A DNA stretch of 64,000 bases from Candidatus Tepidiaquacella proteinivora (GTDB lineage: Bacteria > Bacteroidota > Ignavibacteria > Tepidaquicellales > Tepidaquicellaceae): the NCBI GenBank assembly GCA_013348845.1, contig CP054675.1, positions 2,179,501 to 2,243,500 on the forward strand, read 5' to 3'. The position numbers and the translations under genes were made by a program. This document shows positions 48,998-60,947 of this stretch, one piece after another. The notes beneath the pieces were generated by a model. That model saw nothing but the letters and a program-made list of their open reading frames with translations. It ran no database searches and was not told where the DNA came from. The first letter of the stretch is position 1. Every line of letters begins with the position of its first letter.

Positions 48998-49990
48998 ATG
49001 AGGCAGAAGGAATTTAAAAAAGGCGAAATCGTAATTTATAGAAGCCCTCAAGGACCGGAAATTCAGGTAAAACTGAAACAAGATTCTGTTTGGTTAGATG
49101 CACATCTAATTGCGAAGCTTTTTGATGTTAATAGACCAGCAGTGGTCAAGCATATTAATAATATCTACAAAACAGGCGAATTGGACAAAAAGTCAACCTG
49201 TTCCATTTTGGAACAGGTTGCAGCTGATGGAAAAATCAGAAAAATGAATTTTTATAATCTTGATATGATCATTTCTGTTGGTTATCGGGTTAATTCAAAA
49301 CACGCTACACAATTCCGCATCTGGGCTACGAAGACATTAAAAGACCATTTAATAAAAGGATACACCATAAATGAAAAACGGCTTTTACAGACGCAGAATA
49401 AATTAAAGGAATTACAAAACGCTATTACATTTTTGCAGGAAAAATCACAACACGGATTGCTCTCAGAGCAAACATCCGAAATTCTTAACCTGCTATCATC
49501 TTATGTCAAAACACTTACATTACTGGAACAATATGACAGAGGAAAATTAACTGCGGTTAAAAAATCAAAAAGTAAGTATGTTTTGCAATATGATGAAGCT
49601 AAAAGGATTATAGAGACAATTAGAAAAGAATTACTTGCAAAAAAAGAAGCCAGCGAACTTTTCGGAAGTGAAAATGAAAACAAATTAAAAGGCATAATCG
49701 GGAACATTTATCAGACCTTTGGCAAAAAGGAACTTTATCCTTCTCTGGAAGAAAAAGCGGCTCATCTTTTATATTTTATCATTAAAGACCATCCTTTTAT
49801 TGATGGCAATAAACGAATTGCTTCATTTCTCTTTGTTTATTTTTTAGAAAAAAATAATTTTCTTTACCGTAAGACTGGCGAAAAGAAAATCAATGATAAT
49901 GCTTTGGTTGCGCTTTCCCTTTTAATTGCAATAAGCAACCCTAAGGATAAAGAAATCTTAATTAAAATTATAACTAACCTTTTAAGCTAA
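48998..49990 (+). CDS. RhuM-like DNA-binding domain fused to a Fic/Doc domain
   Basis: The 330-aa protein has two parts. Residues 1-130 match the RhuM virulence-protein family: VWLDAHLIAKLFDVNRPAVV, HINNIYKTGELD, and YNLDMIISVGYRVNSKHATQ then FRIWATKTLKDHLIKGY. After a helical linker, residues about 200-325 form a Fic/Doc domain with HPFIDGNKRIASFLFVYFL, the catalytic motif, near 265. Fic enzymes add AMP or phosphate to targets such as EF-Tu. Such fusions occur near type I restriction systems and may act as a toxin or a regulated effector. It starts 7 nt after radC. Confidence 0.9.
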   Translation: MRQKEFKKGEIVIYRSPQGPEIQVKLKQDSVWLDAHLIAKLFDVNRPAVVKHINNIYKTGELDKKSTCSILEQVAADGKIRKMNFYNLDMIISVGYRVNSKHATQFRIWATKTLKDHLIKGYTINEKRLLQTQNKLKELQNAITFLQEKSQHGLLSEQTSEILNLLSSYVKTLTLLEQYDRGKLTAVKKSKSKYVLQYDEAKRIIETIRKELLAKKEASELFGSENENKLKGIIGNIYQTFGKKELYPSLEEKAAHLLYFIIKDHPFIDGNKRIASFLFVYFLEKNNFLYRKTGEKKINDNALVALSLLIAISNPKDKEILIKIITNLLS

Positions 49991-49992
49991 AT

Positions 49993-50130
49993 ATGAAAAA
50001 CAAAACAGAACAATTACAAAAAGAAATCGACCGGCTGACTGAAGTTAAAAATAAATTGAAAATAAAAATATTATACAATATTATAACTGGAACCAATTAT
50101 TTTAGTTTTAAAGAAAATGGGCTATTATGA
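49993..50130 (+). CDS. Small 45-aa ORF with a RadC-like tail
   Basis: The ATG lies 2 nt after the RhuM/Fic stop and the TGA overlaps the hsdM ATG (ATGA). The product starts MKNKTEQLQKEIDRLTEVKN, a likely coiled coil, and ends TNYFSFKENGLL, which matches the RadC end DDYFSFKNNGLI. It may be a translated relic of a second radC that now couples translation into hsdM, or a genuine small protein. No ribosome site is evident. Confidence 0.5.
   Translation: MKNKTEQLQKEIDRLTEVKNKLKIKILYNIITGTNYFSFKENGLL
50095..50130 (+). repeat. radC 3'-end repeat, copy 2
   Basis: This second copy of the radC end lies directly before hsdM and supplies the tail of the 45-aa frame. It matches 48955-48990 at 28 of 36 positions and encodes YFSFKENGLL against YFSFKNNGLI. 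Confidence 0.6.
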
Positions 50131-52184
50131 ACACAACAACTTCTTATCATCAAATTTCAAATACTATCTGGAATATTGCTAATCATCTTCGTGGTGGATG
50201 GAAAGCTTATGAATATCAAGATGTTATTTTGCCCCTTACTGTTCTGAAACGCCTTGATGCTGTTCTTGAACCAACCAAACAGAAAGTTTTAGAAAAATAC
50301 AATGAACTTGCTGGAAAAGTAAAAACAGAAAATCTTCGAATTCTATGTAGGATTACACGATACAACTTTTACAACATTTCTCCTTATACTTTCAAGAAGT
50401 TATTGGAAGAACCAACACATATTGCCCGCAATTTAAGTAAGTATATTGATGGGTTTTCACCAAATGTAAAAGATATTTTTGAGAAATTTGAATTTCACCG
50501 CCAACTTGAGCGTCTTCAGGGTAGCAACATTCTTTACTTAATCCTGCAGGAATTTGACAAAATTGATTTGCATCCAGAAAGAGTTCCAAATCATATTATT
50601 GGTCTTGCATTTGAAGATTTAATCAGACGTTTTGCTGAACAATCAAATGAAACTGCTGGAGAACACTATACCCCGCGCGATGTTGTGCGTCTGATGGCAG
50701 CACTAATTTTTACTGGTGAAGAAAAAGAACTTTCAAAACCTGGTAAAGTTATCACCATTTATGACCCTGCCTGCGGAACTGGCGGTATGCTTTCTGTGGG
50801 TTCTGATTATGTTAAAAATAATATCAATCCCGAAATTAAAACTTATCTCTTTGGTCAGGAATTAAATCCAGTAACCTATGCTATTTGTAAAGCAGATATA
50901 CTTTTACAGAATGAAGATAAAGATCCAGATGGTATTAAAGGTGGAGATAAAGAACACGATAAGGCAAGCACTCTTTCCAATGACCAGCATTCAGACAAAA
51001 AATTTGACTATATTATCTCTAATCCTCCTTACGGCGTAGAGTGGAAGAAAGATAAAGAAGCGGTTGAGAGGGAAGCAGAACGCGGTTTTGCCGGTAGGTT
51101 TGGAGCAGGACTTCCGCGTATTTCAGATGGGCAATTCCTTTTTATACAACATGCAATTTATAAATTTAGACCCAAAGAAGAAGGTGGAAGCAGAGCTGCA
51201 ATTATTACAAATGGCTCACCACTTTTTACAGGAGATGCTGGCTCTGGCGAGAGTGAAATTCGCAGGTGGATTTTGGAAAATGACCTGCTTGAAGCCATAA
51301 TTGCCTTGCCTGAACAACTTTTCTTCAATACGGGTATAGCTACCTATGTCTGGATCTTTTCAAACAAAAAGAAAGAAGAGCGAAAAGGCAAAATTCAACT
51401 TATTGATGCAAGAAATATAAAAACCCAACTGCGTCGTAATCTTGGAAAAAAACGCTATGAAATTAGCGAAGAAAATGCTAAAGAAATTATTAAACTCTAT
51501 TCTGAATTTAAAGAGAATGAAAAATGCAAAATTTTCCCAACAACAGAATTTGGTTACCGGGAGATTACTATCCAGCGACCTCTTCGGCTTAAATTTGAGA
51601 TAACCGAAGAGGCCATTAACCGACTAAAAGAAAATGAAGTGTTTATAAATGATAGACCAAGCAAAAAGAAAGGTGAAAAAGGAGAGGCCGAAAATAAAAC
51701 ATGGCAGGAACTACGCGCTGAAATATATAAGATATTAGAAAGTATGCTTGGACAGGTTTATATGTCAAGAGCCAAATTTCTTGAGAAGATAGAAGCAGAA
51801 ATTAAAAATCGCGGATTTAAATTAAAAAAACAGATAGCAAAAATAATATGGCAGGAAATTGGCGAGAGAAATGAAGAAGCAGAGATTTGCTACGATGAAA
51901 AGTGCAACCCAGAATCAGACAAAGAATTAAAGGATTATGAAAGAGTGCCTTTAGATAGAGATATTTACGACTATTTTGAAAAAGAAGTGAAGCCCTATGC
52001 TCCTGATGCCTGGATTGATGAGACCGTGCGGGATGAAAAAGATGGCAAGGTAGGTATTGTGGGCTATGAAATTCCGTTTACACGCTATTTTTATAAATAT
52101 GAACCGCCGCGAGATATTAGCCAGATAGAAGAAGAGATAAGTCAATTAGAAATAGAAATTAATGAATTATTGAAAAAACTATGA
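50127..52184 (+). CDS. hsdM: Type I restriction-modification methyltransferase subunit HsdM
   Basis: The 685-aa protein has the HsdM N-terminal helical domain (IWNIANHLRGGWKAYEYQDV) and then an N6-adenine methyltransferase domain. The latter has GEHYTPRDVVRLMAALI near 177, the SAM-binding YDPACGTGGMLSVGSD near 212 and the catalytic ISNPPYGVEWKKD near 300. The C-terminal 180 residues, charged and with a long helix at the end, contact HsdS. It methylates adenine in the target site. HsdS and HsdR follow in the same operon. Confidence 0.95.
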   Translation: MNTTTSYHQISNTIWNIANHLRGGWKAYEYQDVILPLTVLKRLDAVLEPTKQKVLEKYNELAGKVKTENLRILCRITRYNFYNISPYTFKKLLEEPTHIARNLSKYIDGFSPNVKDIFEKFEFHRQLERLQGSNILYLILQEFDKIDLHPERVPNHIIGLAFEDLIRRFAEQSNETAGEHYTPRDVVRLMAALIFTGEEKELSKPGKVITIYDPACGTGGMLSVGSDYVKNNINPEIKTYLFGQELNPVTYAICKADILLQNEDKDPDGIKGGDKEHDKASTLSNDQHSDKKFDYIISNPPYGVEWKKDKEAVEREAERGFAGRFGAGLPRISDGQFLFIQHAIYKFRPKEEGGSRAAIITNGSPLFTGDAGSGESEIRRWILENDLLEAIIALPEQLFFNTGIATYVWIFSNKKKEERKGKIQLIDARNIKTQLRRNLGKKRYEISEENAKEIIKLYSEFKENEKCKIFPTTEFGYREITIQRPLRLKFEITEEAINRLKENEVFINDRPSKKKGEKGEAENKTWQELRAEIYKILESMLGQVYMSRAKFLEKIEAEIKNRGFKLKKQIAKIIWQEIGERNEEAEICYDEKCNPESDKELKDYERVPLDRDIYDYFEKEVKPYAPDAWIDETVRDEKDGKVGIVGYEIPFTRYFYKYEPPRDISQIEEEISQLEIEINELLKKL

Positions 52185-52297
52185 AAACAGTTTTGTTTAC
52201 AACTTTGGCAAGATGTAAACAAAGTAGTACGTTTTGTTTACATTTAAAAGAAGATGTAAACGAACATTATTTTTTAGGAAAAATAAATAAACTATGA
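52181..52297 (+). CDS. 38-aa ORF inside the hsdM-hsdS insert
   Basis: The frame starts MKTVLFTTLARCKQSSTFCL and ends HYFLGKINKL. Its ATG overlaps the hsdM stop and its TGA overlaps the hsdS ATG, so it keeps translation flowing from hsdM to hsdS. It is made of DNA with two palindromes, shows no motif and may serve only as a coupling spacer. Confidence 0.35.
   Translation: MKTVLFTTLARCKQSSTFCLHLKEDVNEHYFLGKINKL
52195..52220. repeat. Palindromic unit 1 (7-bp arms, 12-nt spacer)
   Basis: GTTTACA (52195-52201) and TGTAAAC (52214-52220) are perfect inverted repeats with a 12-nt spacer. The outer bases TTTT before and AAGA inside are also shared with unit 2. It could be a protein-binding site or an RNA hairpin. 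Confidence 0.7.
52236..52261. repeat. Palindromic unit 2 (7-bp arms, 12-nt spacer)
   Basis: GTTTACA (52236-52242) and TGTAAAC (52255-52261) repeat unit 1 exactly in arms and spacer length, 41 bp downstream, about four turns of DNA. Spacer bases differ in the first half, so arms and spacing are what is kept. Confidence 0.7.
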
Positions 52298-53538
52298 AAA
52301 CAAAATTTCAAAAATATCCAAAATATAAAGATTCAGGGATTGAGTGGCTTGGTGAGATACCGGAGGGGTGGGAAGTTAAAAAAGTAAAAAGCATTGGTAA
52401 AGTAGTAGTAGGTGGAACACCTAAAACAGATAATATGTCTTATTGGGAAAATGGAGAAATTTCTTGGTTACCATCAGGAATGGTTCAAAATAAAACCTTA
52501 ATAAGAGATGATGTATATACATTTATAACTAAAAAGGGTCTCCAAGAAAGTGCAGCCAAAATTGTTAAAGAAAATTCTGTCTTGCTTGCAATGACCGGAG
52601 CAACTTGTGGTAATGTGGCTTTGATAACATTTCCATCATCATTCAATCAATCAGTTGCTGGTATTGAGTGTAATTCTGAAATAGATAGTCGTTATATTTA
52701 TTATTCTTTAATGGGTGCCAATCCGAAAATTTTATCGTATAGAATGGGTGGCGCTCAAAGCGGGATAAACAAATATATAGTCAAGAATTTAGAATTGTCA
52801 ATGCCTAGATATGAAACCCAACTTCACGTCGCCGACTTTCTTGACGAAAAGACAAAGATTATTGATGCCATGATTGAGAAAAAACAGAAACTCATTGAAC
52901 TTTTGCGTGAAAAACGCACTTCCCTTATTACCCGCGCAGTAACCAAAGGACTTGATCCAAATGCCAGAATGAAATCTTCAGGTGTAGATTGGATTGGCGA
53001 GATTCCGGAGGAGTGGGAGGTGAGGAGATTAAAGTTTATAGCTTTTTTGCAATATGGAGATTCTTTACCAAATGAAAAAAGAGAAAACGGAGAAATAGAA
53101 GTATTTGGTTCTAACGGTCCAATTGGATTTCATTCAAAAGCCAATACAAAATCACCAGTTATAATTGTTGGTCGTAAAGGTTCTTTTGGAGCTATAAACT
53201 TTACAGAAAAGGAAGTTTTTGCGATTGATACTACTTATTTTATTGATGGACGGTTCAGCAAATCTCATTTGAAATGGTTGGCTTATAGCCTATTGGTAGC
53301 AAAATTAAATGATATTTCTTTGGATACTGGAGTTCCAGGATTATCGCGTGAATCTGTACATAATAAATATTTCCCATTTCCTACAATTCAAGTTCAAAAA
53401 CAAATTGCCGATTTCCTCGACCACGAAACATCCAAAATTGACAAAGCCATAGAATTAATTGAAACTCAGATAGAAAAATTAAAAGAATACCGTGCTTTAC
53501 TTATTTTTAATTCAGTAACAGGAAAGATAAAAATATGA
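52294..53538 (+). CDS. hsdS: Type I restriction specificity subunit HsdS
   Basis: The 414-aa protein has two target-recognition domains. The first half opens KDSGIEWLGEIPEGWEVKKV and the second SSGVDWIGEIPEEWEVRRLK near residue 230. Each ends in a conserved spacer helix (HVADFLDEKTKIIDAMIEKK and QIADFLDHETSKIDKAIELI). These give the bipartite recognition site. HsdS positions HsdM and HsdR on DNA. Its stop overlaps the DUF3800 gene start (ATGA). Confidence 0.95.
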   Translation: MKTKFQKYPKYKDSGIEWLGEIPEGWEVKKVKSIGKVVVGGTPKTDNMSYWENGEISWLPSGMVQNKTLIRDDVYTFITKKGLQESAAKIVKENSVLLAMTGATCGNVALITFPSSFNQSVAGIECNSEIDSRYIYYSLMGANPKILSYRMGGAQSGINKYIVKNLELSMPRYETQLHVADFLDEKTKIIDAMIEKKQKLIELLREKRTSLITRAVTKGLDPNARMKSSGVDWIGEIPEEWEVRRLKFIAFLQYGDSLPNEKRENGEIEVFGSNGPIGFHSKANTKSPVIIVGRKGSFGAINFTEKEVFAIDTTYFIDGRFSKSHLKWLAYSLLVAKLNDISLDTGVPGLSRESVHNKYFPFPTIQVQKQIADFLDHETSKIDKAIELIETQIEKLKEYRALLIFNSVTGKIKI

Positions 53539-57224: not shown

Positions 57225-57962
57225 ATGAAAAAGAAGCTAAAGCAAAATTTAGTTAGCCAGTATTTAGAGAATATTTCTAGGAAAGCATTAGAAAAATATC
57301 AGAGTGTGATAAAAAAATATGTGCGCGGTCGTCACGGAGTATATGCCTTGTACAAAAAGAATAAACTTTATTATGTCGGACTGGCATCCAATTTAAGAAA
57401 TCGGCTACGGCATCATCTTCGGGATCGGCACGCAGGGGCTTGGGATAGTTTTAGCGTATATTTAACTGTTGGCGGAGAACATCTAAAAGAATTAGAAACC
57501 TTGCTTCTTCGCATAATAGATAGAAAAGGCAATAAAAAAAGAGGTAAATTTGGCAAAGCCGAGGATTTACGTCGTAAATTGCGCAACGACTTTAAGAAAG
57601 CGATGAATCTTGAACTTGAAGAGATATTCGGAGATAGCATTCAGGCAGAAGAAGAACCAGAAATAAAAGAAATTGAAAGGCAAGGCAGAATACCAATATT
57701 AGCTTCTTATGTAAATAAAAGATTTCATATTAGATTCAGATATAAAGGCAAGCTCTATATAGCGCATGTCAGAAGAGATGGTTCGATTTCCTTTGCAAAA
57801 GAAAGCGCAGATGCAAAGCGACTGCAAGGAATGGTTTTTACCAGTCCTTCTTCAGCAGCTGCAGCAGCTGTAGGTAAGCCAATGAACGGTTGGACTACTT
57901 GGAAATACGAACGCGCTCCCGGAGATTGGGTGTTTTTGGATGAACTGAGAAAGAATAACTGA
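57225..57962 (+). CDS. GIY-YIG nuclease with C-terminal RAMA/DUF4357-like domain
   Basis: The 245-aa protein has a GIY-YIG domain at about 35-125: RHGVYALYKKNKLYYVGLAS, NLRNRLRHHLRDRHAG and HLKELETLLLRII with the likely catalytic Glu. Residues about 165-243 (YKGKLYIAHVRRDGSISF, FTSPSSAAAAAVGKPMNGW, WVFLDELRK) match the SPSxAA-x-NGW module of RAMA/DUF4357 domains, which are linked to modified-DNA recognition. A strong AAAGGAGG site precedes the ATG by 9 nt. It is the last gene of the restriction operon and could be a modification-sensing nuclease. Confidence 0.85.
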   Translation: MKKKLKQNLVSQYLENISRKALEKYQSVIKKYVRGRHGVYALYKKNKLYYVGLASNLRNRLRHHLRDRHAGAWDSFSVYLTVGGEHLKELETLLLRIIDRKGNKKRGKFGKAEDLRRKLRNDFKKAMNLELEEIFGDSIQAEEEPEIKEIERQGRIPILASYVNKRFHIRFRYKGKLYIAHVRRDGSISFAKESADAKRLQGMVFTSPSSAAAAAVGKPMNGWTTWKYERAPGDWVFLDELRKNN

Positions 57963-58199: not shown

Positions 58200-60947
58200 T
58201 TATTCTATTAAGGTAAATGCACCCCAGAGGTATGGGTCTTTTGGATAGTTTTTATTCATTTCCAGTTGTGCTTTTTTAAATGCGTCATATTTAGACATAC
58301 CTTCAATCCAATTAAGATAAAATAATTTCATAAGTTCTACTGTTTGTTTATCTGGCACTTTCCATAAACTCATAATTAATGATTTTGCGCCTGCAATTTT
58401 AAATGCTCTTTGCAGTCCGAATACACCTTCACCGTTTTTTATATCTCCTAATCCGGTTTCGCATGCAGAAAGTACAACAAGTTCTGTATTGTTTAAATCA
58501 AGATTTGATACATCATAAGCAGTAAGTATCCCGTCGTTTGCTCCCATTACAGTTCGCCCTTCGCTCCAGGCTAAATTTGCTCCGGAGAGGATAATACCTG
58601 AACGCAAGAGGGGATTCTTTGCTGTCTTTATTGTCATTGCTGCACTTGCTCCTAATATATTCTCATTTTTATATGCCTCATCCATTTGCGGGAAAAAATA
58701 TCCGTGCGTTGCAATGTGTAATACTGTGATTGATTTCCTATTAACGAGATTTAATAAAACATCCTCACTTGCTTCTGAACCAGTATATTTTTCAACATTG
58801 TAATTTTTTTGTTTAAATATATTTTCAATTAAGTTTGCTTCTTCAAGCGTACCCGGTAAATAGTTCCATTTTGGTATATTACCACGCAGGTTTTCATCAA
58901 CAATATAATCTATACTTCTTTTAACGGAAAAAGCTTCTGTGAAATTATTTTTATATTTTGAAGCGACTGAAATAATTTCTGCTGTATCTAAATCATATTT
59001 CGCCCCTCCCAAAATAACAGCAAGAAAATTTTCATTAAAAGTATTTTTGTTTTCTTCCCGTTTCCTTTGCAGAAGTTCAGCAAGATTATTGTAAAAGTGC
59101 AGATTATATTTTTCAATGAGAAGTTCGTCGTTTTCAGTTAGTAAAACGGAATATGAAATTCTGTTTAATGAACCTGAAACAGAAAGGTTTATATTATTAA
59201 TACCGGATAAATATGGCTCTAATGGTTTAAATATTTTTTTGTAAAGTTCCTTTGATTTTTTTGCGTTTCTTACATAACTGAAATTGCCTGCTGGACTTGC
59301 TTCAATAAAAGGTTTTATTTCTGATTCTGTAAATAATTTTACAAATTCCGGATAGTCTGAATCTTTTTTTATAATGAATGCGCAATACCAGTTTGTATCT
59401 GTCCAGTCAATATTATAGTAATTGAAATTAATTATATCAATTGCTGCTTCATCTTTTTCAAGTTTCTCTTTTATTTTTCTCCAGGAAGAATTTGATAAAC
59501 TAATTTCTGAATTAAAAGCATCTGACTTTCTGCTTAACTCTTTTTCAAGTTCATTTGCTGAATTTTCAAGTGAGTCAATGTTTAAACCGCTCTTAATTCT
59601 TTCAGAGTATGGTAAATTATTTAAATTGGAAATTAATTGACGGGTTGTTAAAAACTTCTGGTAAATTTCAGTCAATTCTTTATCTTTACTCTTTTTAATT
59701 TTTTCTCTGAGTATTATTGCAGAGTTTAAAACTATTCCCTTCATTGCGAGAGAAACATCAAGCATTTTATCATACACATATTCATTTCCATTACGGATTA
59801 AAAAAGAATTGAAAATGTTAAATTCATAGCCACTTGTTCCTAAAAACTGCAATTTTTCTTTCTCACTCAATACGGGAAAATATTTATAAATATGGTTTAA
59901 ATTAATTTCTGCTACTTTAAGATAACATTGCTCCGCTTTTTGATATTCTCCTTTTTTTTCATAGAGTATTCCTAAATTGAGTAATGAAACAGAAATTTTT
60001 GGATTGTTTTCATCTGTTATTTCTTTTGCTATCTCAATTGATTTTAGAAGGTAATCCTCAGAGTTTTTGAAATCATTTTTTTCAAGATATAAGAGACCAA
60101 GGTTATTCAAAGTAATTGCATAGTCAATATTTTTTTCTCCGTATAAATTTTTATGAATTTCTAATGATTCTTTAAAATATTTTTCAGCTTCATCAAAATT
60201 ATTTTTGGCTAAATATAATACTCCTAAATTATTTACCGTTTTCAGATAATCTATATTATTTTTACCATAATTTATTTCAAATATATTCAGTGCTTTTTTT
60301 AATAATGGTTCTGCTTCCCTGTATTTTCCAAGAAGGTTATAAACAGTTGCTAAGTTATCCAGAGTAATTGCATATAAAGGACTATTCCTGCCAAGTGTAA
60401 TTGCGTAAATTCTTATCGCCTCTTTTAAAAGCTCAATACTTTCAGTATATCTTCCGCTCTCTTTATATAAAATAGCAAGGTTATTCAATGCAGTTGCATA
60501 GTCATAACTTTCGCCATTTTTATATTGTTTAAAAATGCTTGTCGCTTCTTTAAAACAGGATTCAGCTTCTCCGAACCTGCCGGTTGCCATATATAAATTT
60601 CCGAGATTATCAATAGTGACAGCATAAATAAATTTATCTGTGTCGTAAATTTTTTTTAATATGTTTAAAGATTCAAGATACAATATTTCTGCATCTTCAT
60701 ATCTGGCAATAGATTTATATATTAGCGCAAGATTACTTAATGAAACAGCATAATTCTTGTGTTCCTTGCCGAATTCATTTTTCGCTTTTTCTAATGAAAG
60801 ATTTGAGTAATACAAAGCATTTTCATAATCCCCCCTGTTATAAAGCTGAACAGATTTTTTTGTTAATTCATCCCATGACTGTCCGTAAGAAATTGCTGAA
60901 AAGAAAACAATTATGAGAATAACAAAGATTCTTAACTTGTTACTCAT
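58200..60947 (-). CDS. Secreted TPR-CHAT caspase-like protein
   Basis: The 915-aa protein has a signal peptide (about 5-22, ending ISYGQ), eight tetratricopeptide repeats of about 42 aa (24-360, for example AVSLSNLALIYKSIARYEDA), a helical linker and a C-terminal CHAT domain. The CHAT catalytic pair is visible: LHIATHGYFFPQ with His, and VVLSACETGLGDIKNGEGVF with Cys, then AGAKSLIMSLWKVPD. CHAT domains are caspase-clan proteases; this one is predicted to be exported, so it acts outside the cytoplasm. An outer-membrane barrel gene lies 85 nt upstream in the same direction. Confidence 0.93.
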   Translation of the reverse strand: MSNKLRIFVILIIVFFSAISYGQSWDELTKKSVQLYNRGDYENALYYSNLSLEKAKNEFGKEHKNYAVSLSNLALIYKSIARYEDAEILYLESLNILKKIYDTDKFIYAVTIDNLGNLYMATGRFGEAESCFKEATSIFKQYKNGESYDYATALNNLAILYKESGRYTESIELLKEAIRIYAITLGRNSPLYAITLDNLATVYNLLGKYREAEPLLKKALNIFEINYGKNNIDYLKTVNNLGVLYLAKNNFDEAEKYFKESLEIHKNLYGEKNIDYAITLNNLGLLYLEKNDFKNSEDYLLKSIEIAKEITDENNPKISVSLLNLGILYEKKGEYQKAEQCYLKVAEINLNHIYKYFPVLSEKEKLQFLGTSGYEFNIFNSFLIRNGNEYVYDKMLDVSLAMKGIVLNSAIILREKIKKSKDKELTEIYQKFLTTRQLISNLNNLPYSERIKSGLNIDSLENSANELEKELSRKSDAFNSEISLSNSSWRKIKEKLEKDEAAIDIINFNYYNIDWTDTNWYCAFIIKKDSDYPEFVKLFTESEIKPFIEASPAGNFSYVRNAKKSKELYKKIFKPLEPYLSGINNINLSVSGSLNRISYSVLLTENDELLIEKYNLHFYNNLAELLQRKREENKNTFNENFLAVILGGAKYDLDTAEIISVASKYKNNFTEAFSVKRSIDYIVDENLRGNIPKWNYLPGTLEEANLIENIFKQKNYNVEKYTGSEASEDVLLNLVNRKSITVLHIATHGYFFPQMDEAYKNENILGASAAMTIKTAKNPLLRSGIILSGANLAWSEGRTVMGANDGILTAYDVSNLDLNNTELVVLSACETGLGDIKNGEGVFGLQRAFKIAGAKSLIMSLWKVPDKQTVELMKLFYLNWIEGMSKYDAFKKAQLEMNKNYPKDPYLWGAFTLIE

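Follow-up and report, generated by a model that had tools for sequence, protein, structure and literature searches.

A GIY-YIG-RAMA gene recurs beside adenine-methylating restriction systems and may encode an accessory nuclease

Introduction

The type IV enzyme CMoRE/PD-T4-3 combines a GIY-YIG domain with a C-terminal reader (PMC12923530), and for the winged-helix (wH)-GIY-YIG endonucleases Ahi29725I and Apa233I dependence on N6-methyladenine (m6A) has been demonstrated (PMC11037411). Two-domain fusions of GIY-YIG and RAMA are mentioned in the latter publication (2024), and DUF4357 with GIY-YIG in an earlier one (PMC4619093; 2015). Here we describe a gene for a GIY-YIG-RAMA protein in a stretch of 64,000 nt from Candidatus Tepidiaquacella proteinivora (GCA_013348845.1, contig CP054675.1, positions 2,179,501-2,243,500, forward strand), the whole of which is referred to below as the window. 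Since this rare family turns up next to restriction systems of types I, II, IIG-like and III, and related HsdR genes mostly occur without it, its product appears to be an accessory nuclease that can be exchanged among adenine-methylation restriction systems.

Results

The initial annotation had assigned the N-terminal half of the protein to GIY-YIG nucleases and the C-terminal half to RAMA/DUF4357-like modules, and profiles as well as structural modelling bear out both assignments. In Pfam, the GIY-YIG match (PF01541, residues 37-71) scored 26.4 bits against a cut-off of 22.6 and the RAMA match (PF18755, residues 172-243) 36.5 bits against a curated cut-off of 35.2 (E 5e-9), while the DUF4357 profile itself (PF14267, residues 202-228, overlapping the RAMA match) stayed at 32.1 bits, under its curated cut-off of 38.4. 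Within the family alignment, GIY-YIG was matched by 15 of 15 rows and RAMA by all 14 complete rows, with E values up to 0.01 (best 2.5e-17). Run against solved structures, the family profile led from the nuclease half to I-TevI and T4 EndoII and from the other half to MPND and CcrM, all of these matches being weak.

An AlphaFold model was built from the 15-row alignment, and structures were compared with Foldseek and VIA-align 2. The mean predicted local distance difference test score (pLDDT) was 80.7, with values of 84-95 across most of the RAMA region; the low predicted template modelling score (pTM, 0.48) is what a flexible linker between two domains would lead one to expect. The fold of the C-terminal region had been singled out beforehand as a check on its assignment, and in the model residues 158-245 indeed superposed on the RAMA domains of MPND (7ydw; Z 10.2, 1.5-1.7 Å, 74 residues) and CcrM (6pbd; Z 9.6, 2.0 Å), the two superpositions covering 73-74 residues. 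Residues ~18-103 superposed on the GIY-YIG nuclease domain of UvrC with Z 6.4-6.8, a moderate score that agrees with the profile match; the nuclease half also superposed on T4 EndoII (Z 6.1) and, weakly, on the GIY-YIG part of PD-T4-3. The spacing of Y40, Y50 and H64 is identical to that of Y19, Y29 and Y43 in UvrC, residues given in PDB titles, and we take R60, E91 and N103 to be catalytic as well, partly from general knowledge of the GIY-YIG superfamily. As the catalytic residues are intact and invariant in relatives, the GIY-YIG nuclease should be active.

N6 of adenine is the methylation target of type I, type III and BsuBI/PstI systems and of most IIG systems. Neighbourhoods of relatives (cited by our G and L handles) were read from flanking DNA, with genes named by Pfam or PADLOC. 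Type I systems lie beside the GIY-YIG-RAMA gene in G1081, where the hsdM stop is 70 bases away, and in G984; G1124 has HsdS and YhcG beside it, and G1099 an HsdS-like gene nearby, recognized by eye from sequence and without a profile scan. In G969 the neighbours are a BsuBI/PstI endonuclease and its accompanying N6-methyltransferase (type II), and G956 has Mod and Res of a type III system. The gene in G134, whose RAMA half is unseen because the contig stops within it, follows a type IIG-like N6-methyltransferase at a distance of 13 bases. A HamB-like helicase precedes the gene in G009, and an N6-methyltransferase and an HsdS-like protein follow it. In G442, a type I set is located ~9 kb upstream (frames read by eye, the methyltransferase confirmed by profile), with CBASS-like (cyclic-oligonucleotide-based antiphage signalling system) genes and a transposase also upstream; in G1035 a YhcG-like gene stands alone among the neighbours. 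The contigs of G975, G1114, G955 and G1044 end too near for neighbours to be judged. Methyltransferase catalytic motif IV was present in each partner checked.

An N6-type methyltransferase within 6 kb and on the same strand was found in 7 of the 11 informative bacterial loci (the window, G134, G969, G956, G1081, G984 and G009; G956 counted through PF01555), against a chance proximity of about 0.2-3.5% per locus, a rough figure taken from 1-11 PF02384 matches per genome with a null that ignores defence islands. Random placement is thus rejected but mere clustering is not, since defence genes cluster anyway. Of the 35 genomes in the class with related HsdR proteins, only the window genome carries the GIY-YIG-RAMA gene; the gene is therefore optional, and a one-to-one tie of the nuclease to this HsdR family was rejected on account of the 34 genomes lacking it. 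A tie to a single restriction type was likewise rejected, as the partner systems are non-homologous. The closest relative of the window protein, the G969 protein (57% identity), is type II-linked and not type I-linked (in a tree with weak deep support), which points to exchange of the gene between restriction types.

Other genes were seen in the surroundings of relatives. A small protein of ~140-150 residues is encoded at L044:3015-3434, L045:1070-1516, L050:5065-5508 and L052:183-638, in three of these four loci immediately ahead of the GIY-YIG-RAMA gene; two copies were run against Pfam and gave no match. Genes for PIN-like, STAS-like and HATPase proteins (L046:1054-3664) are placed before GIY-YIG-RAMA and behind a type I methyltransferase, and L047 has the same order as far as its contig end.

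Among the 391 genomes surveyed in the class, 16 had a family match at E 1e-8, with partial and RAMA-only matches counted; the phylum sample gave 2 in 395, and another phylum a single full-length match among 398. No homologues were returned by tblastn of plasmid and phage record collections. Two loci in the viral_contigs collection, L014 and L058, carry the gene on phage-like contigs, and in L058 a gpA terminase and a ParB-methyltransferase fusion lie ~4 kb from it. The genome_contigs scan gave two loci only, one of which (L005) is GIY-YIG without RAMA in unrelated surroundings. RAMA-only matches were not taken as members (L015-L017, with frames of 355-367 aa, L050 and L051). The RAMA without GIY-YIG in L050 is a 79-aa stand-alone frame (L050:1986-2225), and that in L051 belongs to a 133-aa protein (L051:8059-8460) whose surroundings resemble a pyruvate-dehydrogenase region.

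In the window, the genes follow one another on one strand in the order hsdM, hsdS, DUF3800, hsdR, GIY-YIG-RAMA, with gaps of 109, -4, 1 and 14 bases (Table 1). The initial annotation had the gene encoded with a type I methyltransferase; the link to an adenine methyltransferase was confirmed, and the wording understates the locus, as the gene is immediately preceded, on its own strand, by the full hsdM-hsdS-DUF3800-hsdR set. The HsdR motifs (D143...ELK, Walker A AGSGKS, DEAH) are intact. Judging only from spacing and strand, the run from hsdM to GIY-YIG-RAMA may be co-transcribed; promoter and terminator scans gave signals near background. The RhuM-Fic gene may or may not be part of the operon, and radC is also found upstream of the type I gene set. 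The GC content of the cassette (0.34-0.39 in most genes, 0.25 in DUF3800) compares with a window mean of 0.30, and its higher GC fits horizontal gain without proving it. A DUF3800 gene also stands immediately after the GIY-YIG-RAMA gene in L044. Convergent with the restriction operon, a TPR-CHAT protein of 915 aa is encoded at window positions 58200-60947 on the minus strand.

Table 1. Features of the restriction locus in the window and of the GIY-YIG-RAMA protein.
Feature	Position	Strand	Remarks
RhuM-Fic protein	48998..49990	+	136 bases ahead of hsdM
HsdM N6-adenine methyltransferase	50127..52184	+	DPACGTG and NPPY motifs intact
HsdS specificity subunit	52294..53538	+	two Methylase_S stretches
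DUF3800 protein, 231 aa	53535..54230	+	between hsdS and hsdR, overlaps hsdS stop; GC 25% versus 34-36% in neighbours
HsdR motor/nuclease, 992 aa	54232..57210	+	HSDR_N, SWI2_SNF2, ResIII and T1R_D3-like domains
GIY-YIG-RAMA gene	57225..57962	+	245 aa; ATG start; AGGAGG ribosome-binding site ahead
GIY-YIG-RAMA protein layout			N-terminal lead 1-35; GIY-YIG ~36-109; low-confidence linker ~136-157; RAMA 158-245 (Pfam, family alignments, AlphaFold, PDB superposition)
GIY-YIG catalytic residues Y40, Y50, R60, H64, E91, N103	57342..57533	+	invariant in all alignment rows covering them
RAMA/DUF4357 domain	57696..57959	+	P208, A211, G222, W226, W235 invariant; W223 in 13/14

Discussion

We tentatively read the GIY-YIG-RAMA protein as a DNA endonuclease accessory to an N6-adenine restriction-modification locus, type IV-like and modification-dependent, and would give this reading a probability of roughly 0.4. 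As to its mode of action, CMoRE and the wH-GIY-YIG enzymes offer analogies that make a type IV-like, modification-sensing one the best fit and the most likely. The RAMA domain would grip duplex DNA and sense the state of its adenines, and the GIY-YIG domain would cleave the DNA so held. Targets would be phage DNA whose adenine modifications protect it from the restriction enzyme encoded nearby, while the sites that the partner methyltransferase modifies in the host would be unsuitable substrates, either for their other sequence context or for want of an added trigger. The occurrence of relatives beside several unrelated adenine-methylating systems suggests a reusable add-on that aids bacterial destruction of phage DNA. 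That the protein is an exchangeable second nuclease for any adenine-methylating restriction system, with RAMA reading the adenine-methylation state and gating cutting on it, so that one module could spread among type I, II, IIG and III operons, is, taken as a whole, rather unlikely; sensing of m6A, and its direction (targeting or restraint), is something we infer only, and the published RAMA data conflict.

Several points speak against modification-dependent cutting. A preference of the MPND RAMA for m6A, reported earlier, was not confirmed by subsequent structural and binding work, in which this domain bound plain DNA just as it bound m6A, and the RAMA domains of CcrM and MPND touched the DNA backbone without specific base contacts (PMC9963953). 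A nuclease triggered by m6A regardless of context would be suicidal, because the partner methyltransferases place m6A on host DNA, and is unlikely; and the linkage could be ordinary defence-gene clustering. On the other side, adenine methyltransferases are found near some wH-GIY-YIG enzymes without site conflict, so that co-encoded m6A is compatible with m6A-dependent cutting, and the authors of that study suggest that GIY-YIG-RAMA proteins may act like the m6A-dependent wH-GIY-YIG enzymes (PMC11037411).

The backbone contacts of CcrM and MPND RAMA, made without base reading, equally suit the idea that RAMA is a general DNA grip and the enzyme a modification-blind helper, nicking or shredding DNA that the adjacent restriction enzyme has opened beforehand. 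As the partners range over types I, II, IIG-like and III, the common factor may be cut DNA and not a shared subunit or site. Yet a constitutive unspecific nuclease would be toxic unless controlled, with no such control visible at the locus, and the authors of the wH-GIY-YIG study expect RAMA to read modification (PMC11037411); we regard such a helper as unlikely, if worth keeping in mind. Alternatively, m6A might act as a brake, the nuclease cutting DNA that lacks adenine methylation while the partner methyltransferase shields the host, be it as one more restriction enzyme or as a sentinel that fires once methylation is lost. The link to methyltransferases of several kinds, the motif IV in each partner checked and the ParB-methyltransferase fusion in phage contig L058 would agree with this; however, unrelated methyltransferases imply differing recognition sites, at each of which one small RAMA domain could not be protected, and most host adenines remain unmethylated; we regard a brake as improbable.

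Finally, the protein might be a defence nuclease acting on its own and grouped with other defence genes by clustering alone, its adjacency to restriction operons being functionally meaningless. In favour, one relative adjoins a HamB-like helicase (G009), another lies downstream of CBASS-like genes and a transposase (G442), and two are on phage-like contigs; the HsdR relatives in genomes without the gene can be cited as well. The short distance to restriction genes in two different systems (13-14 bases in G134 and the window) argues against it, as does the frequency of nearby N6-type methyltransferases relative to the rough chance estimate, whose null ignores defence islands, and we consider independence more improbable still than a brake.

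The architecture is not new, since the fusion has been mentioned in print and matches a catalogued defence candidate. All 15 of 15 family members matched the PADLOC phage-defence candidate PDC-S14 through their GIY-YIG and RAMA/DUF4357 parts (two-part match E 5e-12, with short best stretches); scores were modest, and the PDC-S14 models are longer (280-320 positions). PDC-S14 is a candidate for which we know of no tested mechanism. What appears new is the recurrence beside several adenine-methylating restriction types, not found in the literature searched; a literature search for GIY-YIG with hsd genes or RAMA, largely confined to papers outside subscription, gave no report of the linkage. Given the conflicting published data on reading of m6A by RAMA, a compact RAMA nuclease encoded with adenine methyltransferases lends itself to a direct test, cleavage being easy to read out. 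Should one module truly serve several restriction types, it would reveal how such systems gain a further layer against phages that escape the first.

The fusions noted previously have the same two domains, in the same order so far as described (PMC11037411; PMC4619093); neither context nor activity was given for them, whereas here a defined family with a restriction-operon context emerges. With CcrM (6pbd) and MPND (7ydw) the protein shares the RAMA fold of residues 158-245 (Z ~10), but RAMA is fused to a methyltransferase or an MPN domain there and to a nuclease here. Like the wH-GIY-YIG enzymes, some of whose genes lie near adenine methyltransferases, it joins GIY-YIG to a putative reader; the winged-helix reader and the demonstrated m6A dependence are theirs, the window protein being known from its sequence and predicted fold. 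The CMoRE motif GIYxY-YIG is absent from the window protein, which has GVYALY, with leucine instead of tyrosine two residues past Y40, and its C-terminal domain, unlike that of CMoRE, is RAMA. In overall design, the two nevertheless resemble each other: an N-terminal GIY-YIG domain, a flexible linker and a C-terminal DNA-reading domain (putative in the present case) within ~245 residues (PMC12923530).
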